64,000 bases of DNA from a virus. Shown one piece after another: positions 12,375-43,297 of this stretch; position 1 is the first letter of the stretch, and every line of letters begins with the position of its first letter. The DNA is taken from positions 1 to 64,000 of IMG/VR virus record IMGVR_UViG_3300046533_000687. One strand, 5' to 3'. The position numbers were made by a program, and so were the translations under genes. The notes beneath the pieces were generated by a model that did no database searches, was not told the origin of the DNA, and saw nothing but the letters and a program-made list of their open reading frames with translations.

Positions 12375-14624
12375 ATGCCAAATCGTCCTGAGCATACCGA
12401 CAAGATGAAGGCCTGCGTGGCGAAGCTTCAGGACACGCATGATGATTCGTCTGCCTACGCCATCTGTACGGCGTCGTTGCAGAAGGCTGGCGAGCCGGTC
12501 TTCGTGGGGGCTACGGCCGGTGGTGCGGAGGAGATGAGGCTGCTGGGCGATGTTCCTGGACATGAGTTCCATGGGAATCAATACACTGGTGAAGGCGGGG
12601 CTGCAGCACGTCAAGAACGCATCAAAGAAATTGACAAGCAGATCACAAAGATAGCCGTGGGTCCCAATACGCCCCGCGCAATCAAAGAACGCATGCAGAA
12701 GATCGCCCCTTTGGTTCAAGAGCAAGAACTGCATAAAAATGTTCTTGACCCTACGCGGCCACAAGCCATCTTAGCTTCCTCAAAATTGACAAAGCGCTCG
12801 GATGGCGGATATGACGTACAGCATGAAGGCGCGAAGATTGGAGCGCTGGAGCCGGTAAGTTTCACTGGATTCAAGGCCGTTAACAGTGCGCAGCAGATGA
12901 CCAGCCGCGAGGGGTTCAAGGCGCTATACGGCGACAAGATCGTCAACTCGCAAGGTACTCGTAAGGAAGGGCACGAAGCGATCGCGAGAGCGCACTCAGA
13001 CGTATTGAGAACCCGACTTACTGGCGCTGAAGGTTATGTATTTGACGACGTCGACATAACTTCTCTGCGTACGCTCCACCTCGTCGGCGCCACAGGCGTC
13101 GTGCGCACCGAGATGTTTGAAGGACGCGAGCACCTCGTCGTCCCGCTCGTCGCGCTGATGGAGGGCGTCATCCACGCCATGAACGCCGAGACGCCGGAGT
13201 TCGTGCCGCTGGCCACGCTGCAGAAGGCGGCGGCAACGTGGAACGGCCGTCCTGTCACCATCGGCCACCCGTCGCGTGGCGGGGTTCAGTGCTCGGCCAA
13301 CGACCCCGGCATCCGTGAGTCGCATGGCATCGGCACGATCTTCAACTCGCGCGTCGTGGGCACGAAGCTGCTACAAGAGGCGTGGATCGACAAGGCGAAG
13401 GCGAAGAGGCTTGACCCGGCGATGCTCGCGCGCCTCGTGACAGGCGAACGCGAGGAGGTCAGCGTCGGGGCGTTCGTCATCACGGACGGCACGACGGGCA
13501 GCTACAGGGGCAAGCCGTATCGCGCGCAGTGGCTGGAGACGATCGGCGATCACCTCGCGTTCCTCCCCGGAGGGCGCGGCGCCTGCTCCGTGGAGATGGG
13601 ATGCGGGACGCACCGGGCCGCGATGCGGATGTTAGGAGGATCGATGGAACTGCTGGGATCGATGCCGGACAAGGCGCAGGTCGAGATCAACAAGCCTGGT
13701 CATCCTGCGCACGGCAAGAAGGGCAAGATCACGTCGTCGAAGGGCGACATGCATACTGTCGGCGATTATGGCACGTTCAAGCAGTCGGAGTTGAAGGCTG
13801 CAGCGGATGGCGAGGAGGCCGCCGAGCTTGTCGGCTACAACCTGCTGCGCACGCACCTCGACACGATGGGCAAGGCGTGGGACGAAGCCTCCGGCATCGT
13901 GAACGAGCTGATCGCCGACGAGACCGAGAACCCAACCGAGACGGCTGCGGAGGAAGATGCCGAAGAGGAGGTCGAGTCGGTACGGCTTGACTCTGTCATG
14001 TCTCTGATGTCTGTCATCATGGCGATCGCGTCGCAGGCCATGTCGTGCTGTGCGGTCATGAATGCGCCGGAGGCGACAGACGTCATGCCGCGCTACGGGG
14101 CGATGCCGATGATGCCCTGCCCGACATGCGACGGCACTGGTCAGGTGAAAGATGGCAAGCAGTCGGACTGCCCAACGTGCGACGGCACGGGCGAGGTCGC
14201 CAAGTTCAAGGCGGCAGCTGGTTCACGTCACAACAAGAACGACCAGCAGATGGTTCAGGCAATTCACGATCAAGCTCAGGCGCTGGGTGCGCAGTGCGAC
14301 CGGGCGAACTACAAGATGCTCCGCGACATCTCGCAGAAACAACGCGAAAGACTTCCGGATGCAGATTTCGCTGGCAAGGGCACGTCCTTTCCCATCAAGA
14401 AGCCGGAGGACGTGTCGGCGGCAGCGAGTTCAATCGGTCGGGCGGGCGCGGGCAACTATTCGACGGACGAGTTGAAGGCGAACATCATCAGGATTGCCTA
14501 CCGGAAGGGTGCATCGTTCGTCGCGCAGCTCCCGGAGGCATGGAAGAAGAAAGCGGATCACAAAGCAGCAGCAAACGATCCAAACCGATTCTACATCGAG
14601 TCGGTTCTCAAGGGTGTACGATGA
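12375..14624 (+). CDS. Capsid maturation protease-like protein (DUF2213) with extra modules
   Basis: Core (about residues 235-420): VPLVALMEGVIHAMNAETP, WNGRPVTIGHPSRGG and GEREEVSVGAF match the DUF2213 head maturation protease family. The N-terminus (residues 1-45, with KMKACVAKL and AYAICTASL) also occurs in such proteins. GDVPGHEFHGNQYT at 58-71 precedes an inserted helical module of about 160 residues. The C-terminal part has a KOW-like stretch, an acidic linker and two CPTCDGTG elements near 582-607 that mimic the DnaJ zinc-binding repeat. At 749 residues it is long for the family. It would process scaffold and head proteins. Confidence 0.78.
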   Translation: MPNRPEHTDKMKACVAKLQDTHDDSSAYAICTASLQKAGEPVFVGATAGGAEEMRLLGDVPGHEFHGNQYTGEGGAAARQERIKEIDKQITKIAVGPNTPRAIKERMQKIAPLVQEQELHKNVLDPTRPQAILASSKLTKRSDGGYDVQHEGAKIGALEPVSFTGFKAVNSAQQMTSREGFKALYGDKIVNSQGTRKEGHEAIARAHSDVLRTRLTGAEGYVFDDVDITSLRTLHLVGATGVVRTEMFEGREHLVVPLVALMEGVIHAMNAETPEFVPLATLQKAAATWNGRPVTIGHPSRGGVQCSANDPGIRESHGIGTIFNSRVVGTKLLQEAWIDKAKAKRLDPAMLARLVTGEREEVSVGAFVITDGTTGSYRGKPYRAQWLETIGDHLAFLPGGRGACSVEMGCGTHRAAMRMLGGSMELLGSMPDKAQVEINKPGHPAHGKKGKITSSKGDMHTVGDYGTFKQSELKAAADGEEAAELVGYNLLRTHLDTMGKAWDEASGIVNELIADETENPTETAAEEDAEEEVESVRLDSVMSLMSVIMAIASQAMSCCAVMNAPEATDVMPRYGAMPMMPCPTCDGTGQVKDGKQSDCPTCDGTGEVAKFKAAAGSRHNKNDQQMVQAIHDQAQALGAQCDRANYKMLRDISQKQRERLPDADFAGKGTSFPIKKPEDVSAAASSIGRAGAGNYSTDELKANIIRIAYRKGASFVAQLPEAWKKKADHKAAANDPNRFYIESVLKGVR

Positions 14625-19024: not shown

Positions 19025-19654
19025 ATGAGTTTCAAACAGGGCGAGAAGATTCACACGCACGATGGCAAGGTCCACCGTGTCGGAAAGGGCGGCAAGCTGC
19101 CGAAGATGCGCGTGCCCGGAGAGCGGCACGCGATTCGGGGCTTCATCCGAGGGGCGCTGGTCGATTGCCTCTCCGGCGAGGAGCAGGTCGGCGACTGGCA
19201 CGAGAACGTCATCACGACATACGGCTTCGGCATCGTGGTTCGCAACTATGCGGGCCTCGCGTCGTCGGCCTCGTCGGTCGCCGCCACCGTCACATCAGAC
19301 ATGGGCTTTGCCAGGTTCTGGGGCCTGGGCTACCAGACGGAGGCGCAATCCAGCAACTTCAGCACGATGTCGAAGATCGACTCGACGGAGTGGCCGCTTG
19401 CCTCGACAGGTGGCGTCAGCCGCGCGACGGTCTCGGTCGGTTCGCAGCTGCTGAGCGGCACGTACTCGCTCTCGCAGAGCTTCCAGTACGCGAGCAGCCA
19501 GATCAGCCACGCTCAGACCGTGAACTGCATCGCGCAGTACCACCACTCGTCGGTCGGCTCGGGCACGGCGCACTCGCTGGCGACGTTCGCGTCGAGCACG
19601 AAAGGGACGACGCAGGCGCTCAACGTGACGTACAACTGGGTATTTTCAACTTAG
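19025..19654 (+). CDS. Hypothetical structural protein (209 aa)
   Basis: A basic N-terminus is followed by a stretch (RGALVDCLSGEEQVGDWHEN then VITTYG) seen in phage structural proteins, then a Ser-rich, beta-rich body. Likely a virion component next to the beta-helix protein. Exact role unknown. Confidence 0.6.
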   Translation: MSFKQGEKIHTHDGKVHRVGKGGKLPKMRVPGERHAIRGFIRGALVDCLSGEEQVGDWHENVITTYGFGIVVRNYAGLASSASSVAATVTSDMGFARFWGLGYQTEAQSSNFSTMSKIDSTEWPLASTGGVSRATVSVGSQLLSGTYSLSQSFQYASSQISHAQTVNCIAQYHHSSVGSGTAHSLATFASSTKGTTQALNVTYNWVFST

Positions 19655-19709: not shown

Positions 19710-19937
19710 ATGGCGAAGCAGAAGCAGACAGGACCAGATCCGAAGTTCACCGTTCCTATCGGCACCGAGGGCGCCCCTCTGGAGATCATCTACGGGCATA
19801 ACACGGCGGTCAAGAAGGTGCTGATGCAGTTCAATTTGCTCACCAGCAGTTTGATTTTGACGCCAGAGGATGCCCGCGACGTGGCGCGCAAATTGCTCCA
19901 TTATGCCGACATGGCCGACGGAAAGAAGGCCATGTGA
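19710..19937 (+). CDS. Small hypothetical protein (75 aa)
   Basis: I choose the ATG at 19710, six bases after AAGG; the ATG at 19704 is too close to that site. Contains an IGTEGAPLEIIYG strand region and a C-terminal helix (TPEDARDVARKLLHYADM). Ends overlapping the next gene (GTGA). Unknown function. Confidence 0.55.
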   Translation: MAKQKQTGPDPKFTVPIGTEGAPLEIIYGHNTAVKKVLMQFNLLTSSLILTPEDARDVARKLLHYADMADGKKAM

Positions 19938-20434
19938 CGCCCAAACTGCGCAAGAAGATCGAGGCCAAGAAGGGGATCCTGCTTGACATCTCCTTCGGCG
20001 GGGCTACTCAACCTCGTAGTATCACCCTCGGTCCGAAGGGCGACATCCGTCAGCCTCCAACCGATACATTTCAACTACGTTCCGCGTGCGTTCATACGGC
20101 GATCGTGACGCACGTCCTGGAGTTCATTGAACCGCAGAAATACTTTGCGTGGTGGAATAATTTGCACCGCGTGATGTTGAAGGATGGCATCGTCTACATC
20201 AGCGGACCCTACGGCGGCGACGAGAGTCAGGGCTGGCTCTCAGACCCGACGCATCGGATTCGGATCGTCGAGCAGAGCTTCGCGTGGCTCGACCCGCAGA
20301 CACCGTTCTACGCGCTGCACGAAGCAAGGGGGCGCAAGACGCCGCTGCCGTGGAAGACGTTGACAGTTGCGCGCGTACCCGGCGCGCATGGCACGGTGAC
20401 GTACAACGTGACGATGCAGGCGGTGAAGAAATGA
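19934..20434 (+). CDS. Methyltransferase-like protein (166 aa)
   Basis: Resembles short SAM-dependent methyltransferase domains: GILLDISFGG start, then VTHVLEFIEPQKYFAWWNNLHRVM and KDGIVYISGPY, which match the motif IV to post-I topology of class I enzymes. The first glycine motif is degenerate, so SAM binding is uncertain. First gene of the embedded modification group; GTG start coupled to the gene before. Confidence 0.55.
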   Translation: MTPKLRKKIEAKKGILLDISFGGATQPRSITLGPKGDIRQPPTDTFQLRSACVHTAIVTHVLEFIEPQKYFAWWNNLHRVMLKDGIVYISGPYGGDESQGWLSDPTHRIRIVEQSFAWLDPQTPFYALHEARGRKTPLPWKTLTVARVPGAHGTVTYNVTMQAVKK

Positions 20435-20766
20435 GCGACAAATCTATTCGCGCTGTCGCAATCGACGATCCGATCTGCCCGATGTGCCGGACACCGACAC
20501 TCGGCGTTGATGAGGGCATTGGTCGCTCGGCATATGAATCCGATGTAAGCGAAGAAGGTGAAGATGAGATGCTCATCACGACTACGATGTGGTGGAAGAC
20601 GCGCTGCCACACGTGCAAGACGTCCGTTGAGCGGCATTTACTTGGCGTGGTCGGTTGCCAAGAGGGAGGCTTTGAGCCTAACGTGTCCGAGGAAGTTGAA
20701 CCGACACCTCACGGTCTCATCATCAAGGAACTGCGCGAGCTGAAGGAAAGTTTGGCGGTGAAGTGA
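20431..20766 (+). CDS. Zinc-ribbon protein (111 aa)
   Basis: ATGA-coupled. Has CPMC and CHTC pairs (residues about 16-19 and 52-55), consistent with one zinc ribbon, an acidic middle and a helical tail. Could be an accessory of the enzymes around it. Not recognised further. Confidence 0.6.
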   Translation: MSDKSIRAVAIDDPICPMCRTPTLGVDEGIGRSAYESDVSEEGEDEMLITTTMWWKTRCHTCKTSVERHLLGVVGCQEGGFEPNVSEEVEPTPHGLIIKELRELKESLAVK

Positions 20767-22127
20767 TGGACATCCGCACAATCACCGAACTCTCCAAGCT
20801 ACTCGGCTCTCGACGCCCGAAGAGCGTCTACGAGATTGGCAGCCTGAACATCAACGGCAGCGTCCGGACCCTCTTCCGCGACGCGAAGGAGTATCACGGC
20901 ATCGACATCGTCGAAGGCCGGGATGTCGATACAGTCGGCTACGGCTCGACATATGAACCTCCGTTTCGCCCCGACTGCGTCGTATGCTGTGAGGTCTTCG
21001 AGCATACGCCTGACACTGAGGCGATTGTCAATCAGATGGCGAAGCTCGTCGTCCCTGGTGGCATCGTCCTGATCTCCTGTGCCGGGACACAGCGTCCGCC
21101 GCACAGCGCGGTAGATGGAAAGGATCTGCCGGATGACGAGTACTACGCTGGCATCGACCATCTGGTGCTGACCGAATGGCTGAAGGCAGCAGGCCTCGTC
21201 AACCTCCGGCTGATCATCGGCTGTCTGCCGGATACGACAGACCCGGATACCCAGGGCGTGCACGACATCTACATGATCGGGCAGAAGCCGATTGGCGCTT
21301 TGGCCAATCCGTACGACCCCGTCACGATGGGATCGTCGGCCGCGAATGCACCGCCGGCAGACATCGCCACGCCGAAGCAGCTGACGGTCGTCGAGCAAGG
21401 CAAGACGACTCTCGAAGAGCTCGCGCAGTCCGTGCTCGATACGCGGGAGAAGTACGGCGAGGTTCTCCAGGCTTACCACGAAGTCTGGTACAACGCGCCG
21501 CATACGTGGAGCTACACGCAGTTCCTGAATATCGGGGTCATGAAGTCGCCTAACGACATGTGGATCTATCAGGACATCATGGTGAACCACAAACCGCAGA
21601 CGGTCATCGAGACCGGGACGTATCAGGGAGGTTCGGCGCTGTGGCTTGCCTCGCTTGCCGACCTGATGGGGATCGACACGAAGATCTTCACCATCGACAT
21701 CAAGGACTTCCGGCGCTGTGCGCATCCACGCATCACGTTCATCCGCGGCGACTCGACAGATCCAGGATTGGCGGCGGACTTGGCCAAGCAGGTTGAAGGA
21801 TCGCTGCTGGTGATCCTCGACGCGGATCATTCTGCCGAGCACGTGCGAAAGGAGCTCGAGCTGTACGCGCCGCTCTGCAAGGTCGGCGACTGGCTCGTCG
21901 TCGAAGATACGAACATCGCGTGGCCTGGCGAGCAGGGCGACCGCGGTGCAGCAGGAGGGCTGGCCGACTACCTCGCGCAGCATCCTGGCGAGTGGCAGCA
22001 GGACATCTTGTCCGAGCGGTTCCTGTTGACGATGAATCCCGGCGGGTGGATGCGCCGCGTCGGCGTGTACAGGGAGTTTTACTACGAAGGCGAACTACAG
22101 AAGCAGCAGCTGGAGAGTGTGAAGTGA
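20766..22127 (+). CDS. Fused methyltransferase and CmcI-like enzyme
   Basis: Two enzyme domains. Residues 1-170 form a class I methyltransferase (VYEIGSLNINGSVR, DIVEG, CCEVFEHTPD, VVPGGIVLISCAGT). Residues 215-445 match the cephalosporin-hydroxylase/CmcI and rhamnosyl O-methyltransferase family (VIETGTYQGGSALWLA, IDIKDFRR, LVILDADHSAEHV, GDWLVVEDTN). Substrates are most likely sugars or glycans. The start is ATG 20766; a GTG at 20763 would add one residue. Coupled on both sides within the modification group. Confidence 0.75.
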   Translation: MDIRTITELSKLLGSRRPKSVYEIGSLNINGSVRTLFRDAKEYHGIDIVEGRDVDTVGYGSTYEPPFRPDCVVCCEVFEHTPDTEAIVNQMAKLVVPGGIVLISCAGTQRPPHSAVDGKDLPDDEYYAGIDHLVLTEWLKAAGLVNLRLIIGCLPDTTDPDTQGVHDIYMIGQKPIGALANPYDPVTMGSSAANAPPADIATPKQLTVVEQGKTTLEELAQSVLDTREKYGEVLQAYHEVWYNAPHTWSYTQFLNIGVMKSPNDMWIYQDIMVNHKPQTVIETGTYQGGSALWLASLADLMGIDTKIFTIDIKDFRRCAHPRITFIRGDSTDPGLAADLAKQVEGSLLVILDADHSAEHVRKELELYAPLCKVGDWLVVEDTNIAWPGEQGDRGAAGGLADYLAQHPGEWQQDILSERFLLTMNPGGWMRRVGVYREFYYEGELQKQQLESVK

Positions 22128-23083
22128 AGTGGACAAAAGAAGCGGCCATCGCTCATCGAGAGCGCGTAGACGAACGCGCCAACCGCAAGGCTGACGTCGA
22201 GAAGCGAGATTGGGCGGAACACAAGCACGCGCGAAAGCTGAAACGAACGAAGTCCATGCTCGGCGAAGTCTCGAAGGGCATCTTCGTCAACCCGGTCAAC
22301 CCGAAGACTGCCGAGAATCAGGTCCAGGTCCTCCTCGGTACGCCGACACTCGGAACGGTGCGCATCGAATGGCACAACATGATGAAGGGCATGGTCAGCC
22401 CGCCGAACTGGTCGCTGATCACCAGCACGCCGACAGGCTATACGGTGCCAGACGCGCAGAACATGCTGGTCGACACGATGCTGCGTGGCAACCTGCGGGC
22501 CTTGCTGCTCATCGAGGATGATACCTGTCCACCTCCGCACGCCATCCTGACATTCGACCGCTGGTTCTGGAAGATGGAGCGTCGACTGGCGCCGCCGGTC
22601 GTCAGCGGCCTGTATCACATCAAGGGTAGCGCGGAGGTGCGGAATGGCAAGAAGGGCGGAGTCGAACTGCTTGGTCCTGAACCACTTGCATACAGGGGGA
22701 GTGGGCAGCGTGCCTATCGTGACTGGAAGATGGGCGATGTCATCTGGGTGTCCGGCGTGCCGACTGGTGCACTCCTTCTCCATCGCTCGATCCTTGAGGC
22801 ATGGGCGAAAGAGCCGGACGTCGAAGAGTACGCTGTGCCGGGCTACCCGCACGTCATGAAGCGCATCTTTCAGCAGCCGTCGCACGTCTGGGTAGATCCC
22901 GAGACGAAGGGCGTGCATGTTGCAAGTGGCACCTCGGACTTGTGGTGGTCGGAGCAGACGATCAAGAGGGGCCTGCTCGAGAAGGCTGGCTGGAAGAAGT
23001 ACGCGAAGAAGGAGTTCCCATACATCATCGATACGGGCATGCACTTCAAGCACATCGATCGTGCGACGGGGATGATGTACTGA
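22124..23083 (+). CDS. Glycosyltransferase-like protein (GT-A, 319 aa)
   Basis: GTGA-coupled. After a charged N-terminus come LLIEDDTCPPPHAI (a DXD-like metal and nucleotide-sugar site near residue 130) and VSGVPTGALLLHRSILEAW, as in family 2-like glycosyltransferases. Likely transfers a sugar to a phage or host target. The donor cannot be inferred. Confidence 0.65.
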   Translation: MKWTKEAAIAHRERVDERANRKADVEKRDWAEHKHARKLKRTKSMLGEVSKGIFVNPVNPKTAENQVQVLLGTPTLGTVRIEWHNMMKGMVSPPNWSLITSTPTGYTVPDAQNMLVDTMLRGNLRALLLIEDDTCPPPHAILTFDRWFWKMERRLAPPVVSGLYHIKGSAEVRNGKKGGVELLGPEPLAYRGSGQRAYRDWKMGDVIWVSGVPTGALLLHRSILEAWAKEPDVEEYAVPGYPHVMKRIFQQPSHVWVDPETKGVHVASGTSDLWWSEQTIKRGLLEKAGWKKYAKKEFPYIIDTGMHFKHIDRATGMMY

Positions 23084-23373
23084 TGGTCACGACAGTTGCA
23101 TGCCCTGTCTGTACCAAACCACGCGAGGAAGATTCGCCATGTTGGTGGTGTGAGGATGGCCTTTCGAAGACGAAGCACTCGTGGAGTTGGAAGGGTTGTG
23201 GCGTGTGCCACGGATCTTGCCATGGCGGACATTGCGGAAATGGATGTGAGGCATTCGGTGGATGCCGGAAAACTAGATGCATCTGCAGTCTGATCGGTCC
23301 ATGTCGCCCGTGGTGGAAGCCGAGATGGCTAGGTAACTGGATGTTTGGAAGGCGAATTCGGAATGTCTACTGA
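23083..23373 (+). CDS. Cysteine-rich small protein (96 aa)
   Basis: TGATG start. About fifteen cysteines with histidines in pairs and clusters: CPVC, CWWC, CGVCHGSCHGGHC, GNGC, CRKTRCIC. This suits binding of several zinc ions, or possibly another metal or disulfides. It ends in a Trp/Arg-rich basic tail. Lies between a glycosyltransferase and a zinc-ribbon gene. No family known to me matches the whole pattern. Confidence 0.6.
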   Translation: MVTTVACPVCTKPREEDSPCWWCEDGLSKTKHSWSWKGCGVCHGSCHGGHCGNGCEAFGGCRKTRCICSLIGPCRPWWKPRWLGNWMFGRRIRNVY

Positions 23374-23623
23374 CAACATCGGCATCGCTGACCTTGTCTT
23401 CGTCGAGATGCAAGAATGCGCACCACTCGATACCGTTATTGAAGAACAGGTGCATTCAGTAGACGCCGTGCACCCAAGCAACGTGCTCGCCGGCACGACG
23501 CACCGTGACTGTGGTGGAATCGTGCGCTGGGAATATGAGTCGGACAAGCCTGTCGAGTTCGGGCAGGCGCGGTGTAAGAAGTGCGGACAGGTGGTGACCG
23601 TGCGAGGCGCGCTAGTTGGCTGA
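23363..23623 (+). CDS. Zinc-ribbon protein (86 aa)
   Basis: ATG 23363 has GGAAGG 9 bases upstream; an in-frame TTG at 23345 is possible. Acidic N-terminal half, then DCGGIVRW and CKKCGQ, a likely zinc ribbon. Coupled to the long repeat protein that follows. Confidence 0.55.
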   Translation: MSTDNIGIADLVFVEMQECAPLDTVIEEQVHSVDAVHPSNVLAGTTHRDCGGIVRWEYESDKPVEFGQARCKKCGQVVTVRGALVG

Positions 23624-26393
23624 TCTCTCAGTAGTCGTCGTCGCCGCGACGCTGGCCCTCTCGGAGACTGTCTCCCCGAGCGGCCTTGGCAGTCGCACCC
23701 GGTTCTACTTCCCGAACAGTGGGACCGCGGCCGTTTCGCCGTCCGCAGGGACAGGCTGGAACGACACGACGCAATTCGATCGAGTCGCCCTCGCTCGCTC
23801 GCACAAGAACGAAACGGCGGTTACGAAGACTGAGATCTTCAACGGGTCAGTCCCGGCGAAGGTGCTCATGCGGCAGTTCGTCTCCGAGCCTATCTCTGCG
23901 CAGGTCATTTCCGGCTCAGTCAAAGGCCAGCTGCAAGGGCTTACGAGTCAGGTCGCGAAGCTGGGCAACGTAGCCGTTGCCATCCGCATCGTCAAGAACG
24001 ACGGGACGGATTATAACCCCGTCAAAGACCTGATTCAGACGCCAGCAGCCGGCGATCTGGTCGCCGCTCCTCCGCAGTTTAGCACGACGCTCACGAACCG
24101 CTCCCTGAACAACATCAGCGAGCAGGTCGGCATCGGTCTGACTCCGCAGACGGCAGTTGCTGGAGACCGGATTGTCATTGAGCTGGGCGTGCTGGACACG
24201 GTTGCCAACGCGTCGAGAACGCTCGGACTCTCGTTCGGCGGGACGACGATCACCGACCTCGCCGAGGACAACACCACCACCACCGTCAACTATCCGTGGA
24301 TCGAGTTCAATACTCCGATCCTGATGGATCCGATTGAGCTGCTCAAGCTCTCGGAAACCGTCACGGCAAAGAGGTATGGCGATGCCACGCCTGCGAATGA
24401 AGTCCTCCGACTCTCGGATACGGTCACCGTCACGCGCGATCTTGAGACGGGAGGGTTCGACGAGACCCTGCGGTTATCGGACGTAGTTTCGTCAGCGCTA
24501 CAGCTGGCCGTCTCAGTCGGGTCAGAAACCTTACGCATAACTGATACCTCAACTCCTGCGATAGAACTATCGACGTCCCTGACGGAGACGTTCCACCTTG
24601 GTGATGGTGGTGCGGTCAACCAACAAGGTATCGTCCGACTTGAAGGCGTCCTTCGCGTCATAGATGGTCCGCCCGTCGCGGAGCTAGGCTTCTTCGTCGG
24701 TCCGGAGGTTCTTGTCCTCTCGGATACGGTCGCTGCCGCGTTAACGAGCGGCGCTAGTGATCTTAATGCCTCCGGATTTGATGAGACGCTCAAGCTCTCC
24801 GAAAGCGTTCAGACAACACTCGATCCGCTGCAGGCAAGCCCCTCAGAGATCATTCACGTTTCGGATTCCGTCCAGACGCTGCTAAATCCGCTGCAGGCGT
24901 CGCAGACGGAAACGCTGAAGCTGACGGATACCGTTCAGGCGCAGCTTGATACGCTACTCGTATCGCTCTCCGAGACGCTCAAACTTTCTGATGCAGTTTT
25001 TGCGTCGACCGACGCACTGAGCGCGTTACTTCAGGAGACGCTGAAGCTCTCAGAAGCGCCACAAGAGACGCTTGACCCGCTGCAGGCATCGCCGCAGGAG
25101 ATGCTGAAGCTCTCCGACGTGCTGCAGGCGCAGACGAACCAGCTGAACGCGTCACAAACCGAGACGCTCAAGCTCTCCGAAGCACTACAGGCGCAACTCG
25201 ATACGCTGCTGGCCTCTCTCAGCGAGATGCTGCGTCTATCGGACAGCATCCTGGCGTCACGTGACCTATCAGTTAGCGGCATCGACGAGACGCTCAAGCT
25301 GACGGATGCAGTCTTCGAGACGCTCGATCCACTACAGGCGTCGCCAAGTGAGACGCTCAAGCTGACAGATACCGTCTTCACCACGCTTGACCCGCTTCAG
25401 ACGACGCCAAGCGAGATCGTTCACGTCACCGATACGGTCACGCCTGCACTTGAACTGTCCACGTCGCTTCAAGAGACGCTCAAGCTTTCCGAGAGCGCCT
25501 CGGGTATTACGGATCTCCTTGCGACGCTGAGCGAACTGGTTCACGTCTCAGATGCAGTTACGGCGAAGCGTTACGGCGATGCGACTCCGAGTGCGGAAAC
25601 GGTTCGGATTGCAGATACCGTCACCGCGTCGATGGGCGAGCTTGCCCTGCCTCAAGGTGAGCAGCTCAAGCTCTCGGAAGAGCTGATCGTTGTGATGGGG
25701 ACGGGCGTCTTCCAGGTAGAGACGCTCAGGCTCACGGACACGATTGCCGCTTCCATCGATCCTGAATTCGGCACGGTATCTGAACAGCTGAAGCTCTCTG
25801 ACAGCGTGAACGTCGCGCTAGAACTGTCAGCGTCCCTCACGGAAGCGCTTCGGCTCTCTGAGGCGCCAAGTGAGACGCTCAATCCAGAGCAGGTCAGCCT
25901 TTCAGAGACGCTCAGGATAACTGACACCGTCACAGCGGGCCTGGGTGACATCGCCTCGTCACCGACAGAGCAGCTGAAGCTCAGCGACGCGCTGACCGTC
26001 AGTGTTGACCTTTCGGCGAGTACGTCCGAGACGCTGCGGATCGCCGATGCCATATCTGCTTCGCGTGATCTTGATGTTGCGCTTGATGAGGTCTTACACG
26101 TCGCGGATACGCTGGATATCATCGAAGACCCAATCGTCATCGAACTTGCAGAAACCCTTCACCTTGACGATCAGGTCGCGGCTGCACTCGATCTTTCAGC
26201 CGCGCTGCAAGAGAGTCTCAGAATTCATGATACGGCGTCGGGACTCGTCTTTGTCCCACAGATCGTCCGCATCCATGTCGTCGGCAACTATCGCCCGACG
26301 GTCGATGTGGTTGGCAATGTGCGCAAGACGGTGAGCGTGGTCGGTAATGTGCGCAAGACGGTCTCAGTAACCGGAAGCTGGAGTGATGCCTGA
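23616..26393 (+). CDS. Long repeat virion protein with ETLKLSD units (925 aa)
   Basis: The N-terminal 230 residues form a beta-rich domain. Residues about 235-880 hold some 31 repeats of about 20 residues built on (E)TLKLSDxV followed by a variable spacer such as LDPLQASPS. The C-terminus has three VVGNVRKTV-like units. The repeat is rich in Ser and Thr and resembles an extended fibre or surface protein. Starts at TTG overlapping the previous stop. The same unit appears at the C-terminus of the tail protein at 43287 and in the protein at 42653. Its location beside glycosyltransferases makes it a candidate substrate. Confidence 0.65.
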   Translation: MADLSVVVVAATLALSETVSPSGLGSRTRFYFPNSGTAAVSPSAGTGWNDTTQFDRVALARSHKNETAVTKTEIFNGSVPAKVLMRQFVSEPISAQVISGSVKGQLQGLTSQVAKLGNVAVAIRIVKNDGTDYNPVKDLIQTPAAGDLVAAPPQFSTTLTNRSLNNISEQVGIGLTPQTAVAGDRIVIELGVLDTVANASRTLGLSFGGTTITDLAEDNTTTTVNYPWIEFNTPILMDPIELLKLSETVTAKRYGDATPANEVLRLSDTVTVTRDLETGGFDETLRLSDVVSSALQLAVSVGSETLRITDTSTPAIELSTSLTETFHLGDGGAVNQQGIVRLEGVLRVIDGPPVAELGFFVGPEVLVLSDTVAAALTSGASDLNASGFDETLKLSESVQTTLDPLQASPSEIIHVSDSVQTLLNPLQASQTETLKLTDTVQAQLDTLLVSLSETLKLSDAVFASTDALSALLQETLKLSEAPQETLDPLQASPQEMLKLSDVLQAQTNQLNASQTETLKLSEALQAQLDTLLASLSEMLRLSDSILASRDLSVSGIDETLKLTDAVFETLDPLQASPSETLKLTDTVFTTLDPLQTTPSEIVHVTDTVTPALELSTSLQETLKLSESASGITDLLATLSELVHVSDAVTAKRYGDATPSAETVRIADTVTASMGELALPQGEQLKLSEELIVVMGTGVFQVETLRLTDTIAASIDPEFGTVSEQLKLSDSVNVALELSASLTEALRLSEAPSETLNPEQVSLSETLRITDTVTAGLGDIASSPTEQLKLSDALTVSVDLSASTSETLRIADAISASRDLDVALDEVLHVADTLDIIEDPIVIELAETLHLDDQVAAALDLSAALQESLRIHDTASGLVFVPQIVRIHVVGNYRPTVDVVGNVRKTVSVVGNVRKTVSVTGSWSDA
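24340..26250 (+). repeat. ETLKLSD repeat array in the 925-aa protein gene
   Basis: About 31 degenerate in-frame repeats, roughly 60 bases each. The core reads GAGACGCTCAAGCTCTC or close variants. Units differ at DNA and protein level, so the array is old and diverging, with a few near-identical neighbours (24780-25480) that suggest continuing duplication. Confidence 0.75.
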
Positions 26394-26767
26394 TGGCCAT
26401 TGATGGAGCACTTGACGGCCTGTTTATCGGTGGTGACAGTGAGGTCGTCTATACGGATAGCGACCCCGTCCCGCCAGACATGGCCGCGTGGAACATCGTT
26501 CTCGATATCAGAAAGAAGGACACGTCGAATTCTCCTGCGCTCTTGTCGAAGATCGGCGTGGTAAGCGGCGTGTATGCCAACACGCAGGCGGCGAATCAGC
26601 AGAAGGTAACATTCACACTGACGGCGGCAGAGTTAGGATCGACGATCTTCAAGGGTGACGATCCACGGATGCGATATTCGATCAAGAGGACGAACGCGGG
26701 TGCCGAGCAGCCGTTGCGCTACGGTGACTGTACCATCATTCGTGTGACGCAGATCGAGGGAGAGTGA
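26393..26767 (+). CDS. Hypothetical structural protein (124 aa)
   Basis: TGATG start after the repeat protein. Beta-rich with a middle TFTLTAAELGSTIFKG and a YSIKRTNAGAEQPLRYGDC end, reminiscent of tail-fibre-associated small proteins. Unrecognised. Confidence 0.6.
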   Translation: MAIDGALDGLFIGGDSEVVYTDSDPVPPDMAAWNIVLDIRKKDTSNSPALLSKIGVVSGVYANTQAANQQKVTFTLTAAELGSTIFKGDDPRMRYSIKRTNAGAEQPLRYGDCTIIRVTQIEGE

Positions 26768-26768
26768 C

Positions 26769-27377
26769 ATGCCGTTAGTCATCGATGCAACTGTTGGGGG
26801 AGTCGCTTCAAACAGCTACGAGACGCTGGCAGAAGCGCAGGCGTATTACGAGTCGCGCCTGCCGCTATCCGGGTGGGAAGACGCGGACAGCCAGGACGTG
26901 CTGCTGGTCATGGCCACGCGGCTGCTCGAGAACTTCGCGAACTCGCTGAAGGTCCTCGTGCCGGCACAGAACGGCATCGCGGCCTACTACCTCATCGAGC
27001 GTCGATGGACCGGGATGCCTGCTACCGCGACGCAGAAGCTCTCGTGGCCGCGCATCGGGATGTACGACGTTAACGGGAACCCGATTCCAGAGACCGTCAT
27101 CCCTCAGGAGCTGAAGGATGCCGAGTCCGAGTTCGCCGGGCAGCTTGGCATAGCAGACCGCACGCTGGACAACGACGTGATCGTGCAGGGACTGACATCC
27201 GTCAAGGCGGGCAGCGTGGCGCTGACGTTCAAGAATCAATTTCAGCCACAGGTCGTGCCTGACGCGGTGCTGAACCTGTTGCTGCCAGGGTGGCTGACCG
27301 ACGTGGTCGTCGAACCGGCCGTGCCCGCGCTGTTCGACGTCGTATCTGGTCCACGTCATCATGGAGGCTGGTGGTGA
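26769..27377 (+). CDS. Head-tail connector, DnaT-like family (202 aa)
   Basis: Begins with the pattern VIDATVGGVASNSYETLAEA, then QAYYESRLPLSGW. This fits the phage family often labelled 'DnaT-like ssDNA-binding', which acts as an adaptor (gp6/gp15-like) below the portal. Helical, with a Trp-rich C-terminus. I favour the connector role from its position. Confidence 0.7.
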   Translation: MPLVIDATVGGVASNSYETLAEAQAYYESRLPLSGWEDADSQDVLLVMATRLLENFANSLKVLVPAQNGIAAYYLIERRWTGMPATATQKLSWPRIGMYDVNGNPIPETVIPQELKDAESEFAGQLGIADRTLDNDVIVQGLTSVKAGSVALTFKNQFQPQVVPDAVLNLLLPGWLTDVVVEPAVPALFDVVSGPRHHGGWW

Positions 27378-27757
27378 GCATCCTTGATGCGCTGCGCGCA
27401 GGCGTGAAGGTCGCAGACAAGGTGACGAAGCCTCTGCAGCCGTCGGTCTCCTTCGAGCGCTACCTGAGCGAGGATGGATTCGGTACGCGCACCTATGCAT
27501 CTGCCGTTCCGCTGAAGGCGATCGTCGAGCATAAGCAGCGAAACGTGAGCACGATGACAGGTGAGCTGGCCGTCAGCCGCGCGTATGTCATGTTCCTGGA
27601 CATCGCCGCGTTGGTGATCGCGACGGCAGGGGACGGCGTGGACGTGAATGATAAGATCACGCTGCCGAATGGCGTGACAGGGCCGATCTTGAACTTCGAC
27701 GGCTTCGTGGATGCCGGAACTGGACAACCACTTGCGACGGAGATATACCTCGGATGA
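27374..27757 (+). CDS. Head-closure or joining protein (127 aa)
   Basis: GTG 27374 overlaps the previous stop, with GGAGG close upstream. Beta-rich (VSFERYLSEDGFGTRTY, KITLPNGVTGPILNFDGFVD), the usual make-up of head-closure proteins. Lies directly after the connector, as expected. Confidence 0.6.
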   Translation: MSILDALRAGVKVADKVTKPLQPSVSFERYLSEDGFGTRTYASAVPLKAIVEHKQRNVSTMTGELAVSRAYVMFLDIAALVIATAGDGVDVNDKITLPNGVTGPILNFDGFVDAGTGQPLATEIYLG

Positions 27758-28827
27758 CCTTCATCGATTCCCGTCATAAGCTCTTCGGCCATCTCGACCG
27801 CCTCGTCGGCTGGCAGCACGGAGAGCATCCAGCACCGGTGACGGTCGAGTGGGACCTCTCGAACCGCTGCGCGCTCGGGTGCATGGACTGTCACTTCGCG
27901 CACACGCACACACGCGGACCGTGGGCGAGCAAGCCGCGCACCTTACCGATGGCATACGACTCAGGTGGTGACCTGGCTGACATCGACGTCGTGCGACGCG
28001 GTCTGGACCAGATGGCGCGCATCGGTGTCAAGGGTATCGTGTGGAGCGGAGGTGGAGAGCCGACGACGCATCCGCGATGGCAGGACGTCATCGACTACGC
28101 CTCGTCGCTCGGTCTGCAGCAAGGCATGTATACGTTCGGCGGACTGTTTGATGAGAAGTCGGCGACACACCTCGCGAGGCATGCTGAATGGGTCGTCGTC
28201 TCGCTTGACGCACCTGACGAGCATACCTACGCGCACGAGAAGGGCGTGCAGTCGTCACGGTTCTTTGCCGCCTGCGACGGTATCGGGTGGTTGGCGCAGG
28301 TGAAGAAGGCGACCGTCGGCGTCTCGTTCCTCTTGCATGCGGACAACTGGACGCGTGCTGGTGAGATGCTGTCGCTGGCACGAGCGCTTGGTGCGACCTA
28401 CATCACCTTCCGCCCAGCCGTTCGTACAACGCCGGATGCACCATCAACGTGTACTGACGACCGCTCGTGGATCACCGCCGCGCTGCCGAACCTGAAGGAC
28501 TACGAGAGCGAGCCCGATGTCGAGTGTGACGTCGATCGGTTCCTGCAGTATCGAGATTGGACGACGCGGTCCTATTCGACGTGCCACGGCGTGAAGTTGA
28601 CGACGACGATCACACCCGACGGTCGTCTATGGATGTGTCCGCAGCACCGTGGCGTGCCTGGAAGCTGTCTTGGCGACCTCAAGACCGAGTCGTTCAAGGA
28701 CATCTGGTATAGGCATGGTGGTACCTATACACAGTTTGACAACTGCCGCGTCATGTGCCGCTTGCATCTGATGAACGAGACGCTTGCACAAGTCTACGCG
28801 CAGCACGAGCATGGAGCATTTCTGTGA
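27754..28827 (+). CDS. Radical SAM protein with SPASM-like cysteine tail
   Basis: C39-x3-C43-x2-C46 binds the radical [4Fe-4S] cluster, and SGGGEPTTHP (98-107) is the SAM-binding GGE motif. The C-terminal part has further cysteines (277, 295, 305, 331, 335) around TPDGRLWMCPQH, the layout of SPASM or twitch domains that bind auxiliary clusters. Such enzymes modify peptides, sugars or nucleotides. It sits between a head-closure gene and a glycosyltransferase, coupled by ATGA and GTGA overlaps. The substrate is unknown; a virion protein or glycan precursor is possible. Confidence 0.82.
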   Translation: MTFIDSRHKLFGHLDRLVGWQHGEHPAPVTVEWDLSNRCALGCMDCHFAHTHTRGPWASKPRTLPMAYDSGGDLADIDVVRRGLDQMARIGVKGIVWSGGGEPTTHPRWQDVIDYASSLGLQQGMYTFGGLFDEKSATHLARHAEWVVVSLDAPDEHTYAHEKGVQSSRFFAACDGIGWLAQVKKATVGVSFLLHADNWTRAGEMLSLARALGATYITFRPAVRTTPDAPSTCTDDRSWITAALPNLKDYESEPDVECDVDRFLQYRDWTTRSYSTCHGVKLTTTITPDGRLWMCPQHRGVPGSCLGDLKTESFKDIWYRHGGTYTQFDNCRVMCRLHLMNETLAQVYAQHEHGAFL

Positions 28828-29453
28828 TCAACGTCTGTATCACCGTGTTCAACCGTTACGACCTGCTTGCCCGTCTCTTCGCGTCGCTTGGTGCTAGCAC
28901 GGTGCAGCCTGACGAGGTCTACGTCATCGATCGCGGAAATGATCCCGTCCGACTGAAGCATGCCGCCAACGGACGCCCGTTCATCACGGTGCCGCTCGAA
29001 GGGCAGAGCCTCCCGGCAGCGTGGAATTGGTTCATGTCGAACGTCGAGGAGGAGCGCGTCATCGTAAGCGATGACATCGAGTTCTTCCCTGAGACGTTGG
29101 AAACCTTCTTGAAGACGCCAGGTGACCTTGTCGGACTGGAGGATGGCAAGTCGAGTCACTTTGCCTGCTTCGCGCCGCGCAACAGCTGTATCAAGAAGGT
29201 CGGGTTCTTCGACGAGTCGCTGTCACCCGACTACATGTATTTTGAGGATAGCGACTATGGCCGACGCATGCTCCTGTTAGGCATACCGATCGTCGGCATC
29301 TCGTGCATGCATCACGGCTTGGCGCAGTCGTGGGAGAAGAAGACGGAAGCGCAACGCAGCGATCACCATCGGCGGTTCATGATCGCGCAGGACAACTATA
29401 TCAAGAAGTGGGGCGGCATCCCTGGGAAAGAGAAGAAGCATGCAGATCGGTAA
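28824..29453 (+). CDS. Family 2 glycosyltransferase (209 aa)
   Basis: N-terminal INVCITVFNRYDLLARLFAS is the GT2 nucleotide-binding start; VIVSDDIEFFP supplies the acidic metal site; DESLSPDYMYFEDSDYGRRM is the acceptor-side ED motif. Short but complete in motifs. Starts at GTG inside the radical SAM gene's stop. Confidence 0.75.
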   Translation: MINVCITVFNRYDLLARLFASLGASTVQPDEVYVIDRGNDPVRLKHAANGRPFITVPLEGQSLPAAWNWFMSNVEEERVIVSDDIEFFPETLETFLKTPGDLVGLEDGKSSHFACFAPRNSCIKKVGFFDESLSPDYMYFEDSDYGRRMLLLGIPIVGISCMHHGLAQSWEKKTEAQRSDHHRRFMIAQDNYIKKWGGIPGKEKKHADR

Positions 29454-29955
29454 CCTCTATCATCATCGCGTACTTGGAATGCTGGCGACGCGGACGCAGA
29501 GCTACCTGGAGATCGGCGTACAGGAGGGTGATTCGCTAGCAGCTGTCGTCGCGGCGAACAGGGAGATCGACGTCACACTCTGCGATCCATGGGATGCTAA
29601 TCACGGCGGCACGAACCGTGGCTCACACCACCACATTCAGGAGCGCTTGAACACGCTCGCGCATCGGGGTAAGCGCTGCTACCTCGACGGGTTCTCGTCT
29701 GTGGAGATCCCGAAGATCGACTGTCAGCACTTTGACCTCATTCACGTTGACGGCGATCACTCCTATGAGGGCTGTAAGAATGACCTCAAGATGTGCTGGC
29801 CGATGACGTTACGCTACCTCGTGGTTCACGACGTGTTCTTCCAGGAAGTACGTGACGCGGCGTTTCAGTTTCTCGAGTGGCACCACGCGGAGTTCGGTGA
29901 GGTATCATTCTCTGCATCAGACCACGGGACTCTGGTGATCGAGAGGGAGCGATGA
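29440..29955 (+). CDS. Class I methyltransferase (171 aa)
   Basis: SYLEIGVQEGDSLAAV is the SAM-binding motif I, CDPWD the acidic loop, DLIHVDGDHSYEGCKNDLK and LVVHDVFF complete a Methyltransf_24-type domain. Overlaps the glycosyltransferase by 14 bases. Probably O-methylates a sugar or small metabolite used by the neighbouring enzymes. Confidence 0.75.
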   Translation: MQIGNLYHHRVLGMLATRTQSYLEIGVQEGDSLAAVVAANREIDVTLCDPWDANHGGTNRGSHHHIQERLNTLAHRGKRCYLDGFSSVEIPKIDCQHFDLIHVDGDHSYEGCKNDLKMCWPMTLRYLVVHDVFFQEVRDAAFQFLEWHHAEFGEVSFSASDHGTLVIERER

Positions 29956-31196
29956 AAAAGCTCCTCTGGGTCGGCGATGCCTGCGTGAGCTCGGGGTTCG
30001 CCCGAGCGACGCATAACATCCTCGACACGTTGCGCTACGTCTTCGACGTCCAGGTGCTCGGACTGTGTTACAGCGGTGACCCGCACGACTATCCGTACAA
30101 GGTCTATCCCGCGTACAGTGGTGGAGATGCGTTCGGCGTCGGGCGTGTCAAGGACATCGCGGAGTCATTCAAGCCGGACGTTATCGTCATCCAGCAGGAC
30201 CCGTGGAACTTTCCACCATACCTCGAGCAGCTCAAGGGGATCGACGCGCCTATCGTCGGACATGTGGCCGTTGACGGTAAGAACTGCGCCGGAGAGAAGT
30301 TGCAGGGGCTGGCGGCCTGCGTCTTCTGGACGATGTTCGGGGAGGCGGAAGCGAAGGTTGGAGGCTATGTCGGGCCGACAGAAGTCATCCCGCTGGGCGT
30401 CGATCGTAACATCTACAAGCCTCTGGACAAGATAGAGCTGAAGGCGAATATCATAGGCCCCGTCCTGGCCGTGCAGCATCTCCCTGCCGACTCATTCGTC
30501 GTGGGCGTGGTCGGGCGTAATCAGGAACGCAAGCGCCTCGACCTGACGATCCGGTACTTCGCCGAGTGGGTGCGGTCGCACAAGGTTGAAGATGCCTGCC
30601 TGTGGTGCCACGTTGCGCCGACCGGCGATCAGGCGTATGACATGCACCAGCTCGTGAAGTATTACGGGATGGGCGGTCGCGTGTTCGCGCCTTCTATCAA
30701 TCCGGTCTACGGGCTGCCTGAAGCGTCGATGGCAAAGGTGATCAACCTGTTCGACGTGTTCTTCTCGACCACGCAGGGTGAGGGATTCGGTCTGCCGGCA
30801 CTCGAGGCGATGGCGTGCGGCGTGCCGCCACTCCTGCCAGACTGGTCGGCGTATGGCGACTGGGCGCGTCGAGGCGCGACGCTCGTGCCCTGCTCCTCGA
30901 CCGCCGTGACGCCGCACATCGGCGGCGCGGTACTCGGCGGCATCATGGACGAGGAGAAGGCCATCGAGAAGCTGCACTGCCTCTATGCCGAGAACGGTCT
31001 GCGTGCGCGGCTGTCACGCCAGGCGCTGGACCTTGCCTCGCAGCCCGAGTTCCAGTGGCCGGTCATCGGGGATGCCTGGCTGAAAGTGCTCTCAGATGTG
31101 CTCCAGAACTGGCCAGGATTGGCTGTGGAAGCTGAAAAGGACGCGGCCGTGGCTAACCCCTTCCAGAGCCAGGCTGTGGCAGAGGTGGCATCATGA
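29952..31196 (+). CDS. Family 4-type glycosyltransferase (414 aa)
   Basis: GT-B fold: N-terminal WVGDACVSSGFARATHNI, linker VIPLGVDRNIYKP, and C-terminal STTQGEGFGLPALEAMACG with the E-x7-E donor-site pattern. Transfers a sugar from a nucleotide donor. ATGA-coupled on both sides, last gene of the modification group before tail-completion genes. Confidence 0.82.
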   Translation: MKKLLWVGDACVSSGFARATHNILDTLRYVFDVQVLGLCYSGDPHDYPYKVYPAYSGGDAFGVGRVKDIAESFKPDVIVIQQDPWNFPPYLEQLKGIDAPIVGHVAVDGKNCAGEKLQGLAACVFWTMFGEAEAKVGGYVGPTEVIPLGVDRNIYKPLDKIELKANIIGPVLAVQHLPADSFVVGVVGRNQERKRLDLTIRYFAEWVRSHKVEDACLWCHVAPTGDQAYDMHQLVKYYGMGGRVFAPSINPVYGLPEASMAKVINLFDVFFSTTQGEGFGLPALEAMACGVPPLLPDWSAYGDWARRGATLVPCSSTAVTPHIGGAVLGGIMDEEKAIEKLHCLYAENGLRARLSRQALDLASQPEFQWPVIGDAWLKVLSDVLQNWPGLAVEAEKDAAVANPFQSQAVAEVAS

Positions 31197-31612
31197 AAGG
31201 TGCCAGCGAGATGATCGCGAAGGTGAGACTTGTCGCGAAGGCGCAGCCCAACCGCGTAGGCGCGGCACTCTACCTTGAAGGGCAGATCGAGATGACCGAG
31301 TCGAAGCGGCGCTGCCCCGTGTCGCCGACCGCCGCGCAGTTCAAGGCGATGGGCCGGACGATGCCGAAGGGCCTGGTGCCTGGCACGCTGCGGGCGAGCG
31401 GACAGGTGGCCGAGCCGGAATATCAGGGCAACAACATCTCCGTCACGCTATCTTACGGCGGCGCGGCGATCGACTATGCTATCGTGCAGCACGAGCGTCT
31501 CGACTATCACCACACGACGGGCCAGGCAAAATACCTCGAGAGTGTGATCAACGAGTCGCGGCCGTTCATGGCCGCGCGCCTTGCTGCGCGGCTGCAGTTA
31601 AAGGAAGGCTGA
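31193..31612 (+). CDS. Tail completion protein, HK97 gp10-like (139 aa)
   Basis: Pattern YAIVQHERLDYHHTTGQAKYL near the C-terminus is characteristic of HK97 gp10-like proteins that link the tail tube to the head. Size and order (before tail terminator and tube) agree. Confidence 0.75.
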   Translation: MKGASEMIAKVRLVAKAQPNRVGAALYLEGQIEMTESKRRCPVSPTAAQFKAMGRTMPKGLVPGTLRASGQVAEPEYQGNNISVTLSYGGAAIDYAIVQHERLDYHHTTGQAKYLESVINESRPFMAARLAARLQLKEG

Positions 31613-42653: not shown

Positions 42654-43297
42654 TGGCTGATGATTGGATCGATGGCAAACCAGACCCCGGCCTTGGGCCG
42701 AACAGCGGCGACAATTGGATTGATGGGAAGCCGGATCCAATTCTGGAACCGACGGGCGGGGATCTGTCTGCTAGCCTCCAGGAGACCCTCCGGGTCACGG
42801 AGTTCGCGTCAGGCCCGCTGCTCGCCGCGCTCCTCACGGAGCACCTTCGCGTCTCGGACACAGCGCTCGTCGTTCAGCCGGTCGAGCTGTTCGCGTTCAT
42901 CGCGTCGGAACACGTTACGGTTTCCGACGCGCTGGTTGTGCAGCCGATCTTTCTCTCTGTATCTCTTACGGAGACAATTCGGATTCGTGATACTCCGACC
43001 ACGCACATCTTTCAAGGAAAGATCCACCTCTCGCAGGAGCCCATCGAGGTCCTGGATGACGATGGTGAGACGCCGTTCATTCACCTGTCTCAAGAGCCAC
43101 TCGAATCGCTGGTCGATGACGGCATTGAGCCTGTCGTTCACCTCTCGCAGATACCGATCGAGGTGCTTGTGGAAGTTGTTACGCAATGCATCTCCGGCGG
43201 GCAAGTGCCCGTCCTTGACGATCCACCAGACGGGCAGCCGTTCGTCGGACGTAACCTCAATCCGCGCTTGTGGTTGGAGATAGACTTTGACGATTAG
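42653..43297 (+). CDS. Repeat protein with ETLRVSD and HLSQEP units (214 aa)
   Basis: Starts with a duplicated NWIDGKPDP-type unit, then four units of the ETLKLSD kind (QETLRVTE, TEHLRVSD, SEHVTVSD, TETIRIRD) and three HLSQEPIEVL units. It ends DPPDGQPFVGRNLNPRLW like the lectin-like protein. Likely an extended connector between tail proteins. Confidence 0.6.
   Translation: MADDWIDGKPDPGLGPNSGDNWIDGKPDPILEPTGGDLSASLQETLRVTEFASGPLLAALLTEHLRVSDTALVVQPVELFAFIASEHVTVSDALVVQPIFLSVSLTETIRIRDTPTTHIFQGKIHLSQEPIEVLDDDGETPFIHLSQEPLESLVDDGIEPVVHLSQIPIEVLVEVVTQCISGGQVPVLDDPPDGQPFVGRNLNPRLWLEIDFDD

Follow-up and report, generated by a model that had tools for sequence, protein, structure and literature searches.

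The region between positions 19934 and 31196 of the window (the whole stretch of DNA analysed, 64,000 nucleotides of an IMG/VR virus record) is, on balance, probably a cassette for virion glycosylation, with a radical SAM (rSAM) enzyme that tailors a sugar. It is composed of two modules, 19934-20763-22124 and a slot among connector and tail-completion genes. Its methyltransferase (MT), glycosyltransferase (GT) and rSAM genes are interleaved with head-tail genes, as claimed in the preliminary description and borne out here, 22124 as a GT excepted, by open reading frame, Pfam and PHROG evidence. Our reading draws on the exchange of slot enzymes while GT4 29952 is kept, on purifying selection, on rSAM genes that repeatedly adjoin sugar-type genes in structural blocks, on the nearest family of MT 20763, that of CmcI / rhamnosyl O-methyltransferases, on the nucleotide-sugar surroundings of distant cellular rSAM genes, and on similar blocks in a podovirus and in the cultured phages S-CBS4 and phiPsal1.

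Organisation of the cassette and of its variable slot

All the open reading frames named previously exist, with starts at or at most 3 bases from the positions first given; the gene listed at 20766 has a GTG start codon at 20763. The genes are as follows.

19025..19654, + strand: conserved virion-module protein of 209 aa, S+T 23%, no family match, directly upstream of the first cassette genes
19934..20434, + strand: probable small SAM-dependent methyltransferase (weak Methyltransf_11 matches of family members)
20434..20766, + strand: small Cys-containing protein, lineage-specific (no family match; no match in sister phage L005)
20763..22127, + strand: two-domain methyltransferase, C-terminal half CmcI / rhamnosyl O-methyltransferase-like (Pfam)
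22124..23083, + strand: possible GT-A-type glycosyltransferase with an IEDD motif (conserved family without profile match)
23616..26393, + strand: repeat protein, ETLKLSD repeats of 21-residue type spaced by about 21 or 41-42 residues, S+T 22%
26393..26767, + strand: conserved small protein upstream of the adaptor (no family match; syntenic in relatives)
26769..27377, + strand: head-tail adaptor Ad1 (phrog_477, 1.8e-24)
27374..27757, + strand: head-tail connector, left border of the variable slot (phrog_3881, 2.4e-5; same border in four related phages)
27754..28827, + strand: radical SAM enzyme with one predicted auxiliary cluster (C39/C43/C46 + C277/C295/C331/C335; Pfam, invariant Cys, AF2)
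28824..29453, + strand: family 2 glycosyltransferase (Pfam Glycos_transf_2, 7e-6; phrog_29879, galactosyl transferase, 1.2e-18)
29440..29955, + strand: methyltransferase (Pfam Methyltransf_24, 1.2e-12)
29952..31196, + strand: family 4 (GT-B) glycosyltransferase (Pfam Glycos_transf_1, 7e-10; phrog_2170, glycosyltransferase, 3.9e-27)
31193..31612, + strand: probable tail-completion (Neck1-like) protein, right slot border (from position and homologues in L152 and L154; no family match of its own)
31704 (start): connector (PHROG match, 7e-11)
32199 (start): major tail protein (PHROG match, 7e-7)

Start/stop overlaps of the ATGA or GTGA type are found at 20763, 22124, 27754, 28824, 29952 and 31193, and 29440 overlaps the preceding gene over a longer distance; these overlapping frames suggest that the cassette is co-expressed with the structural genes. 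Promoter and terminator scans gave site counts no higher than in shuffled sequence, and a megablast of the cassette against annotated phages gave zero matches. When compared to the sister phage, dN/dS is 0.03-0.05 for 27754-31193, 0.08 for 20763, 0.04 for 22124 and 0.14 for 19934, low values which point to purifying selection on the cassette genes, strong in 27754-29952.

The first module recurs in 12 related phages, each time next to one and the same head gene, and the 19025 protein, identical in the sister phage, is encoded near the cassette in 12/12 relatives of 22124. The assignment of 19934 as a methyltransferase has weak support at the level of its family: when 10 family members were scanned together with 11 GT2-like proteins, 8 of the members gave weak Methyltransf_11 matches (best 4e-4). 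The protein itself has no family match; its profile has no match in the PDB, and a homologue is present in 9 of the 12 relatives of 22124. Two methyltransferase domains are recognised by Pfam in 20763, Methyltransf_23 (4e-8) and RMNT_CmcI (3.8e-41), in agreement with the first assignment, and the protein matches CmcI structures in the PDB (2e-13) as well as, weakly, 3ssm, 'Methyltransferase' (3e-3). The naming of 22124 as a glycosyltransferase is not confirmed, as no match is found in Pfam, PHROG, NCBIfam or PDB profile searches and its AlphaFold model is poor (pLDDT 48; no Foldseek match with this model at E<=0.001). It is strongly conserved (65-75% identity in 12 phages), and its motif makes it a possible, putative GT-A-type enzyme.

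In the slot, the functions proposed for 28824 and 29952 (GTs) and 29440 (MT) agree with the Pfam matches and, for the two GTs, with PHROG. Homologues of 28824 (40-41% identity) are found in the same slot of two relatives, and those of 29952 in the slot of three (E 1e-109 to 1e-120); neither protein has a match in the PDB, and 28824 has none in the podovirus record described below. The slot is here arranged as rSAM-GT2-MT-GT4, while in relatives it reads GT2-MT-C-methyltransferase-GTs, GT2-MT-B12-rSAM-GTs, or is reduced to the GT4 29952 homologue alone. GT4 29952 is thus the constant member, every slot version examined having a GT4. Such variation, together with the absence of one small gene (20434) from the sister, could also reflect unrelated morons gathered in a permissive late-operon site with no shared pathway. 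This is highly improbable, as the identified slot content is limited to GT, MT and rSAM enzymes, the frames overlap, dN/dS is 0.03-0.05, and the adjacency of rSAM and sugar-type genes recurs in other lineages (see below).

The radical SAM enzyme and its family

The naming of 27754 as a radical SAM/SPASM-like enzyme is upheld by Pfam (Radical_SAM, 6.6e-10; SPASM, 5e-6), by an invariant CX3CX2C motif (C39/C43/C46), which together with a partial TIM barrel defines the superfamily, and by fold matches of probability 1.00 to many rSAM structures, obtained with an AF2 model of pLDDT 90 and pTM 0.89. A full SPASM domain carries two auxiliary clusters on a seven-cysteine motif, CX9-15GX4C-gap-CX2CX5CX3C-gap-C. 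In the 27754 family, exactly four auxiliary cysteines are invariant in 22 sequences (C277-X12-G-X4-C295 and C331-X3-C335), and the Pfam SPASM match stops at position 52 of 67, with a similar cut in most relatives. On the count of four invariant cysteines versus seven, a full-SPASM peptide maturase is rejected, and one extra 4Fe-4S cluster of twitch-like type is predicted.

It had been suggested that this enzyme would allow peptide modification, a claim which our results do not support. The rSAM could modify a virion polypeptide directly (cross-link, thioether, epimerisation, oxidation), the GTs acting separately or on the modified residue, and SuiB, CteB, SkfB and anSME are indeed among its top fold matches (probability 1.00), with weak NCBIfam similarity to maturases such as WgkB (2e-7) and with structural genes accompanying the family almost throughout. 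We regard this as unlikely: besides having invariant cysteines for one auxiliary cluster only, 27754 departs from RiPP maturases in that its rSAM motif starts at residue 39, leaving no N-terminal space for a leader-binding domain, and Pfam lists no RRE domain in it. No short precursor gene lies beside it, its neighbours being GT, MT and connector genes, even if an unusual precursor could escape such a search; across the family, neighbours are of sugar type (GT, epimerase, methyltransferase). The sugar enzymes DesII and BlsE are equally good fold matches, and the model-based fold comparison, which mixes them with the peptide or protein enzymes SuiB, SkfB and anSME, is therefore neutral as to a sugar or peptide substrate. 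It is likewise doubtful that the rSAM, with a virion polypeptide or the sugar-peptide bond itself as its substrate, forms a radical-made protein-glycan or intraprotein cross-link in the tail or neck, a chemistry of which we know no example in virus particles.

In IMG/VR, 80 of 125 rSAM loci were taken in. The 27754-type rSAM forms a phage family of at least 24 lineages; among the 24 listed, structural genes are on the contig in 23, and a sugar-type gene lies at most two genes from the rSAM in 22. The flanking families are GT2, GT-B (6e-16), GT4-FkbM, epimerase/GDP-mannose dehydratase and MT, and the structural genes beside these loci encode Neck1, Ad1, major tail, portal and tape-measure proteins. 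One clade of 14 rows (support 100/100) spans several insertion sites: Neck1/tail tube, terminase/portal, a capsid-side epimerase, and connector/tail completion. A point against a virion role is that distant relatives (23-30% identity) in a cyanophage, a megaphage and lake phages occur outside structural operons, accompanied by sugar or other genes; the cyanophage one lies among heptose genes. A gut-phage rSAM relative has a ParB-like gene and, judged by eye, a further GT-like gene as neighbours. Of 79 proteins neighbouring distant cellular relatives, 13 are Epimerase, 12 GDP_Man_Dehyd and 8 GT2.

Probable target of the proposed modification

The proposal that the late-operon enzymes modify virion proteins is supported by their conserved place in the structural block and by the association of the rSAM family with structural genes (23/24), which fits modification of virion components; the Ser/Thr-rich repeat protein 23616, named there as a possible target, is no more than a candidate. 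With 21.9% S+T versus a genome median of 11.5%, 23616 is indeed rich, but 19025 (23.4%) and 39963 (23.2%) are equally so, and its S/T content thus does not make it a special acceptor. With relatives in 8/12 phages and 55% identity to its sister homologue, against 93-99% for most neighbours, it is possibly a head or neck fibre and a candidate acceptor.

In the virion-glycosylation model, the GTs, lying within the structural block as in phage virion glycosylation, would be made alongside head-tail proteins and would attach a short glycan to one of the abundant proteins of the virion (tail tube, capsid or repeat fibre). GT4 29952, as the constant enzyme of the slot, would most likely add the first or core sugar, GT2 28824 would extend the glycan, and 20763 and 29440 would methylate it. 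The rSAM could introduce a radical-based change (e.g. dehydrogenation, epimerisation, deoxygenation) on a nucleotide sugar or on the bound glycan, making the glycan distinct for that phage lineage. The cassette was found to hold no gene for NDP-sugar synthesis, and the sugars would have to come from the host. We infer the virion protein as acceptor, the order of steps and the sugar as rSAM substrate, late-operon placement alone being no proof of the target.

Alternatively, the cassette could change the polysaccharide of the host surface at a late stage of infection (superinfection exclusion, debris release), like O-antigen seroconversion genes. A gtr-type seroconversion cluster consists of a gtrA flippase, a gtrB bactoprenol transferase and a membrane gtrX; no membrane-bound or flippase-type (gtrA/gtrB) family was found in the Pfam scan of the cassette, which does not conform to such a cluster. 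Action on the host surface is the usual interpretation of cyanophage and pelagiphage GTs (PMC7029224), and the heptose genes around the cyanophage rSAM and the nucleotide-sugar loci of the cellular relatives would agree with it. It nevertheless seems improbable, as the insertions, although at different points, consistently fall among head-tail genes, and late timing would bring little exclusion benefit there.

A hypermodified DNA base has also to be considered, since the phage encodes two TAGT glycosyltransferases (positions of the 75 kb record):

67750-71574, minus strand: TAGT (PF20691) fused to DNA_pol_A
66524-67093: second TAGT (PF20691)

The late enzymes could elaborate a base glycan begun by these TAGTs, and the gut-phage rSAM beside ParB-like and GT-like genes would fit. 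This is very unlikely, and is lowered by the lack of rSAM/TAGT co-occurrence: none of the 11 further viral contigs tested that carry the rSAM has a TAGT, nor does the complete genome of the podovirus, while G008 has TAGT without a 27754-type rSAM. A TET/TAGT system linked to the cassette would comprise TAGT together with TET/JBP or some hydroxymethyl-pyrimidine source. The TAGTs, however, lie in the leftward replication module, outside the late block, and no TET/JBP or thymidylate synthase-type gene was found in the record, which is possibly incomplete. The TAGT pair may separately glycosylate phage DNA.

Known systems and significance

Few phage isolates are known to have glycosylated particles. 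In mycobacteriophage Corndog (cluster O), an O-methyltransferase and three sugar transferases lie between portal and protease, and capsid modification has been proposed (PMC4351075); this is like our cassette in combining such genes within a virion structural operon, but no rSAM is described, the insertion site is another, and the relation is one of gene content only. In Che8-type mycobacteriophages, capsid and tail tube subunits carry glycans that have been linked to phage GTs (Freeman et al. 2023, as cited in PMC12619734 and PMC11256854), and the related cluster F1 phage Maravista has GT genes near its genome 3' end (PMC11256854). The modification is here, by difference, predicted from genes alone. 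To our knowledge, no rSAM takes part in Che8-type virion glycosylation.

Synechococcus phage S-CBS4 and Pontimonas phage phiPsal1, which both exist as isolates, encode in the head operon, among portal, capsid and neck genes, a GT4 of 29-30% identity, a methyltransferase resembling the N-terminal half of 20763, and either a GT2 or a galactosyl transferase, but no annotated radical SAM gene. In the complete podovirus ctQWt234 (MW202801), an rSAM gene (26% identity) comes right behind the gene for the major capsid protein, with a GT as its next neighbour; the block, rSAM-GT-PhyH-MT-NodB-GT, differs by other GTs and by additional PhyH and NodB-like genes. The sugar rSAM enzymes DesII and BlsE, among the best structural matches of 27754, are only 14-17% identical to it, and its sugar substrate is presumed. 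The modification suggested for the rSAM had been called not usual in phages, which is right in part: cassettes of GT and MT genes have been seen before in structural operons (Corndog, PMC4351075; S-CBS4; phiPsal1), whereas our literature search found no paper describing an rSAM-containing one.

All these results point to a mobile family, found for the most part in phages without a culture, whose rSAM is tied to GTs inside the particle-building operon, in at least 24 lineages and at several insertion sites. The slot would act as an O-antigen locus in miniature, with a constant transferase and exchangeable tailoring enzymes, and the model predicts that phage enzymes make a sugar altered by radical chemistry. 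If true, O-antigen-like swapping of tailoring genes lets phages build surface sugars that are exchangeable and chemically unusual, which would matter for the recognition of hosts and for the binding of other partners to virions.

Virion operon and its modification enzymes

The left two thirds of the window, which covers positions 1–64,000 of an IMG/VR virus record of 75,485 bases (G000), form a single rightward gene block:

4812, rightward: terminase
6203, rightward: portal
12375, rightward: protease-type gene
15263, rightward: decoration gene
15736, rightward: capsid, before the modification-enzyme region
after that region, rightward: connectors
32199, rightward, after the connectors: major tail protein
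33705, rightward: large ORF in tape-measure position

All the modification genes named in the preliminary description are present, and their interleaving is borne out; the start and stop sequences of consecutive genes overlap, so translational coupling is likely. Pfam and PHROGs confirm the radical SAM/SPASM-like enzyme (rSAM, 27754), the glycosyltransferases (GT) 28824 (GT2) and 29952 (GT4), and the methyltransferases (MT) 29440 and 20763, the latter a two-domain protein whose second half is of the CmcI/rhamnosyl O-methyltransferase type. Of the other enzymes proposed, 19934 is probably a methyltransferase, by weak family evidence, and 22124 is conserved, with a putative glycosyltransferase role. 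Upstream, ORFs 8275–10899 and 12375–14624 share the motif LGDxPGHEFHGNQ(W/Y)T; in the former, a Mu-F head domain is accompanied by a weak KptA/ADP-ribosyltransferase-like match (E 0.001).

A fixed module and a variable slot

The first module (19934–20763–22124) is a fixed element in this group of phages. Relatives of 22124 occur in 12 phages at 65–75% identity, preceded in all 12 by a 19025 homologue and a 20763-type methyltransferase and in nine by a 19934 homologue, and followed by a repeat-protein relative in eight, several of these contigs ending early. The second module is a slot between connector 27374 and the tail-completion/terminator genes 31193 and 31704, in which the sugar enzymes differ between relatives:

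window and sister phage: rSAM–GT2–MT–GT4
related contig G008: GT2–MT–C-methyltransferase (Methyltransf_13/14)–GT–GT28824–GT–GT29952
related contig G010: GT2–MT–B12-binding rSAM–GT–GT28824–GT–GT29952
related contig G005: GT29952 alone

GT29952 is the constant member (E 1e-109 to 1e-120 in relatives). Extra radical SAM proteins adjoin cassette enzymes in relatives (L153:4958–6577, which is B12-binding, L053:1684–2958 and L105:15–1298), so cassettes of this kind may include a second radical chemistry.

The sister phage (L005, IMGVR_UViG_3300046690_000688) has the gene order of the window, except for the small Cys-containing cassette gene 20434–20766, which it lacks; at the small Cys-rich cassette gene 23083–23373 it carries about 470 inserted bases. 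Between the two phages, dN/dS is 0.03–0.05 for 27754, 28824, 29440 and 29952, and in the same range for the adaptor and connector genes. Repeat protein 23616 is 55% identical, versus 93–99% for most neighbours. A second, shorter protein with similar ETLxLSD repeats lies in the tail-fibre region (42584–43297).

Known cassettes and DNA as a possible target

Peptide modification by an rSAM of this type had been described as not usual in phages. GT and MT genes in such a position have precedents: in Corndog, the stretch between portal and protease holds sugar transferases and an O-methyltransferase, for which capsid modification has been suggested (PMC4351075), and the cultured phages S-CBS4 and phiPsal1 have GT4–GT2–MT cassettes in head operons. 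For the rSAM–GT virion-operon cassette, no description was found in open-licence literature. Glycans on mycobacteriophage capsid and tail tube are reported by Freeman et al. (2023), as cited in PMC12619734.

The DNA may be glycosylated too, as the leftward replication region of the record contains two TET-associated glycosyltransferase (TAGT) domains:

G000 67750–71574 (L009:3750–7574), minus: family A DNA polymerase with a TAGT domain fused on its N-terminal side
G000 66524–67093, minus: second TAGT domain

This pair suggests putative base glycosylation coupled to replication; TET/JBP and thymidylate synthase-type genes were looked for in the record and neither was found. TAGT was not found in 11 other rSAM-bearing contigs nor in the complete podovirus MW202801, and G008 has TAGT without this rSAM. 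As the two do not co-occur in the other contigs tested, most of them partial, the TAGT and rSAM-cassette systems look independent. An ORF resembling an MT-A70-type adenine methyltransferase, with a DPPW motif seen by eye, lies at L009:1329–1904 (minus).

Substrate and gene context of the radical SAM enzyme

The auxiliary-cluster cysteines, from which peptide modification had been proposed, are partly recovered. In 22 rSAM sequences, C39, C43 and C46 are invariant, together with exactly four further cysteines (C277, C295, C331, C335), which fit one auxiliary cluster, whereas the SPASM domain of peptide maturases has seven cysteines; for 27754, Pfam matches SPASM only as far as position 52 of 67. 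As DesII, SuiB, CteB, BlsE, SkfB and anSME are all among the best solved-structure matches to its AlphaFold model (pLDDT 90), the fold does not decide between a sugar and a peptide substrate.

An IMG/VR profile scan gave 125 relatives, of which 80 were kept; among these, the close family (38–63% identity) comprises 24 groups at 90%. Genes were called greedily (same strand, GC3-weighted) in contigs of which many are partial, and neighbours were identified with Pfam and PHROGs, each cluster being labelled from one representative. Of the 24 groups, 23 have structural genes on the contig; in 22, the rSAM has a gene for a GT, an epimerase, a methyltransferase or another rSAM at most two genes away, and in the other two no sugar gene was recognised (many contigs are partial). 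The orders are:

commonest: Ad1–Neck1–GT2–rSAM–GT-B–major tail protein–...–tape measure
other: terminase–rSAM–GT-B–portal
other: capsid–epimerase–rSAM–...–MT
other: capsid–GT4/FkbM–GT2–GT2–rSAM–...–Neck1
other: GT4–GT2–second rSAM–rSAM–Neck1

Among GTDB species genomes, one match reaches 41% identity, on a 3.9 kb, perhaps viral, contig, and the remainder 19–33%; the latter have numerous epimerases, GDP-mannose dehydratase-type proteins and GTs among their neighbours.

Several of the viral orders fall within one fully supported clade of the rSAM tree that includes the window; the gene has therefore moved between sites, yet has kept to the structural block beside sugar enzymes. Gene context thus favours a sugar as its predicted substrate.
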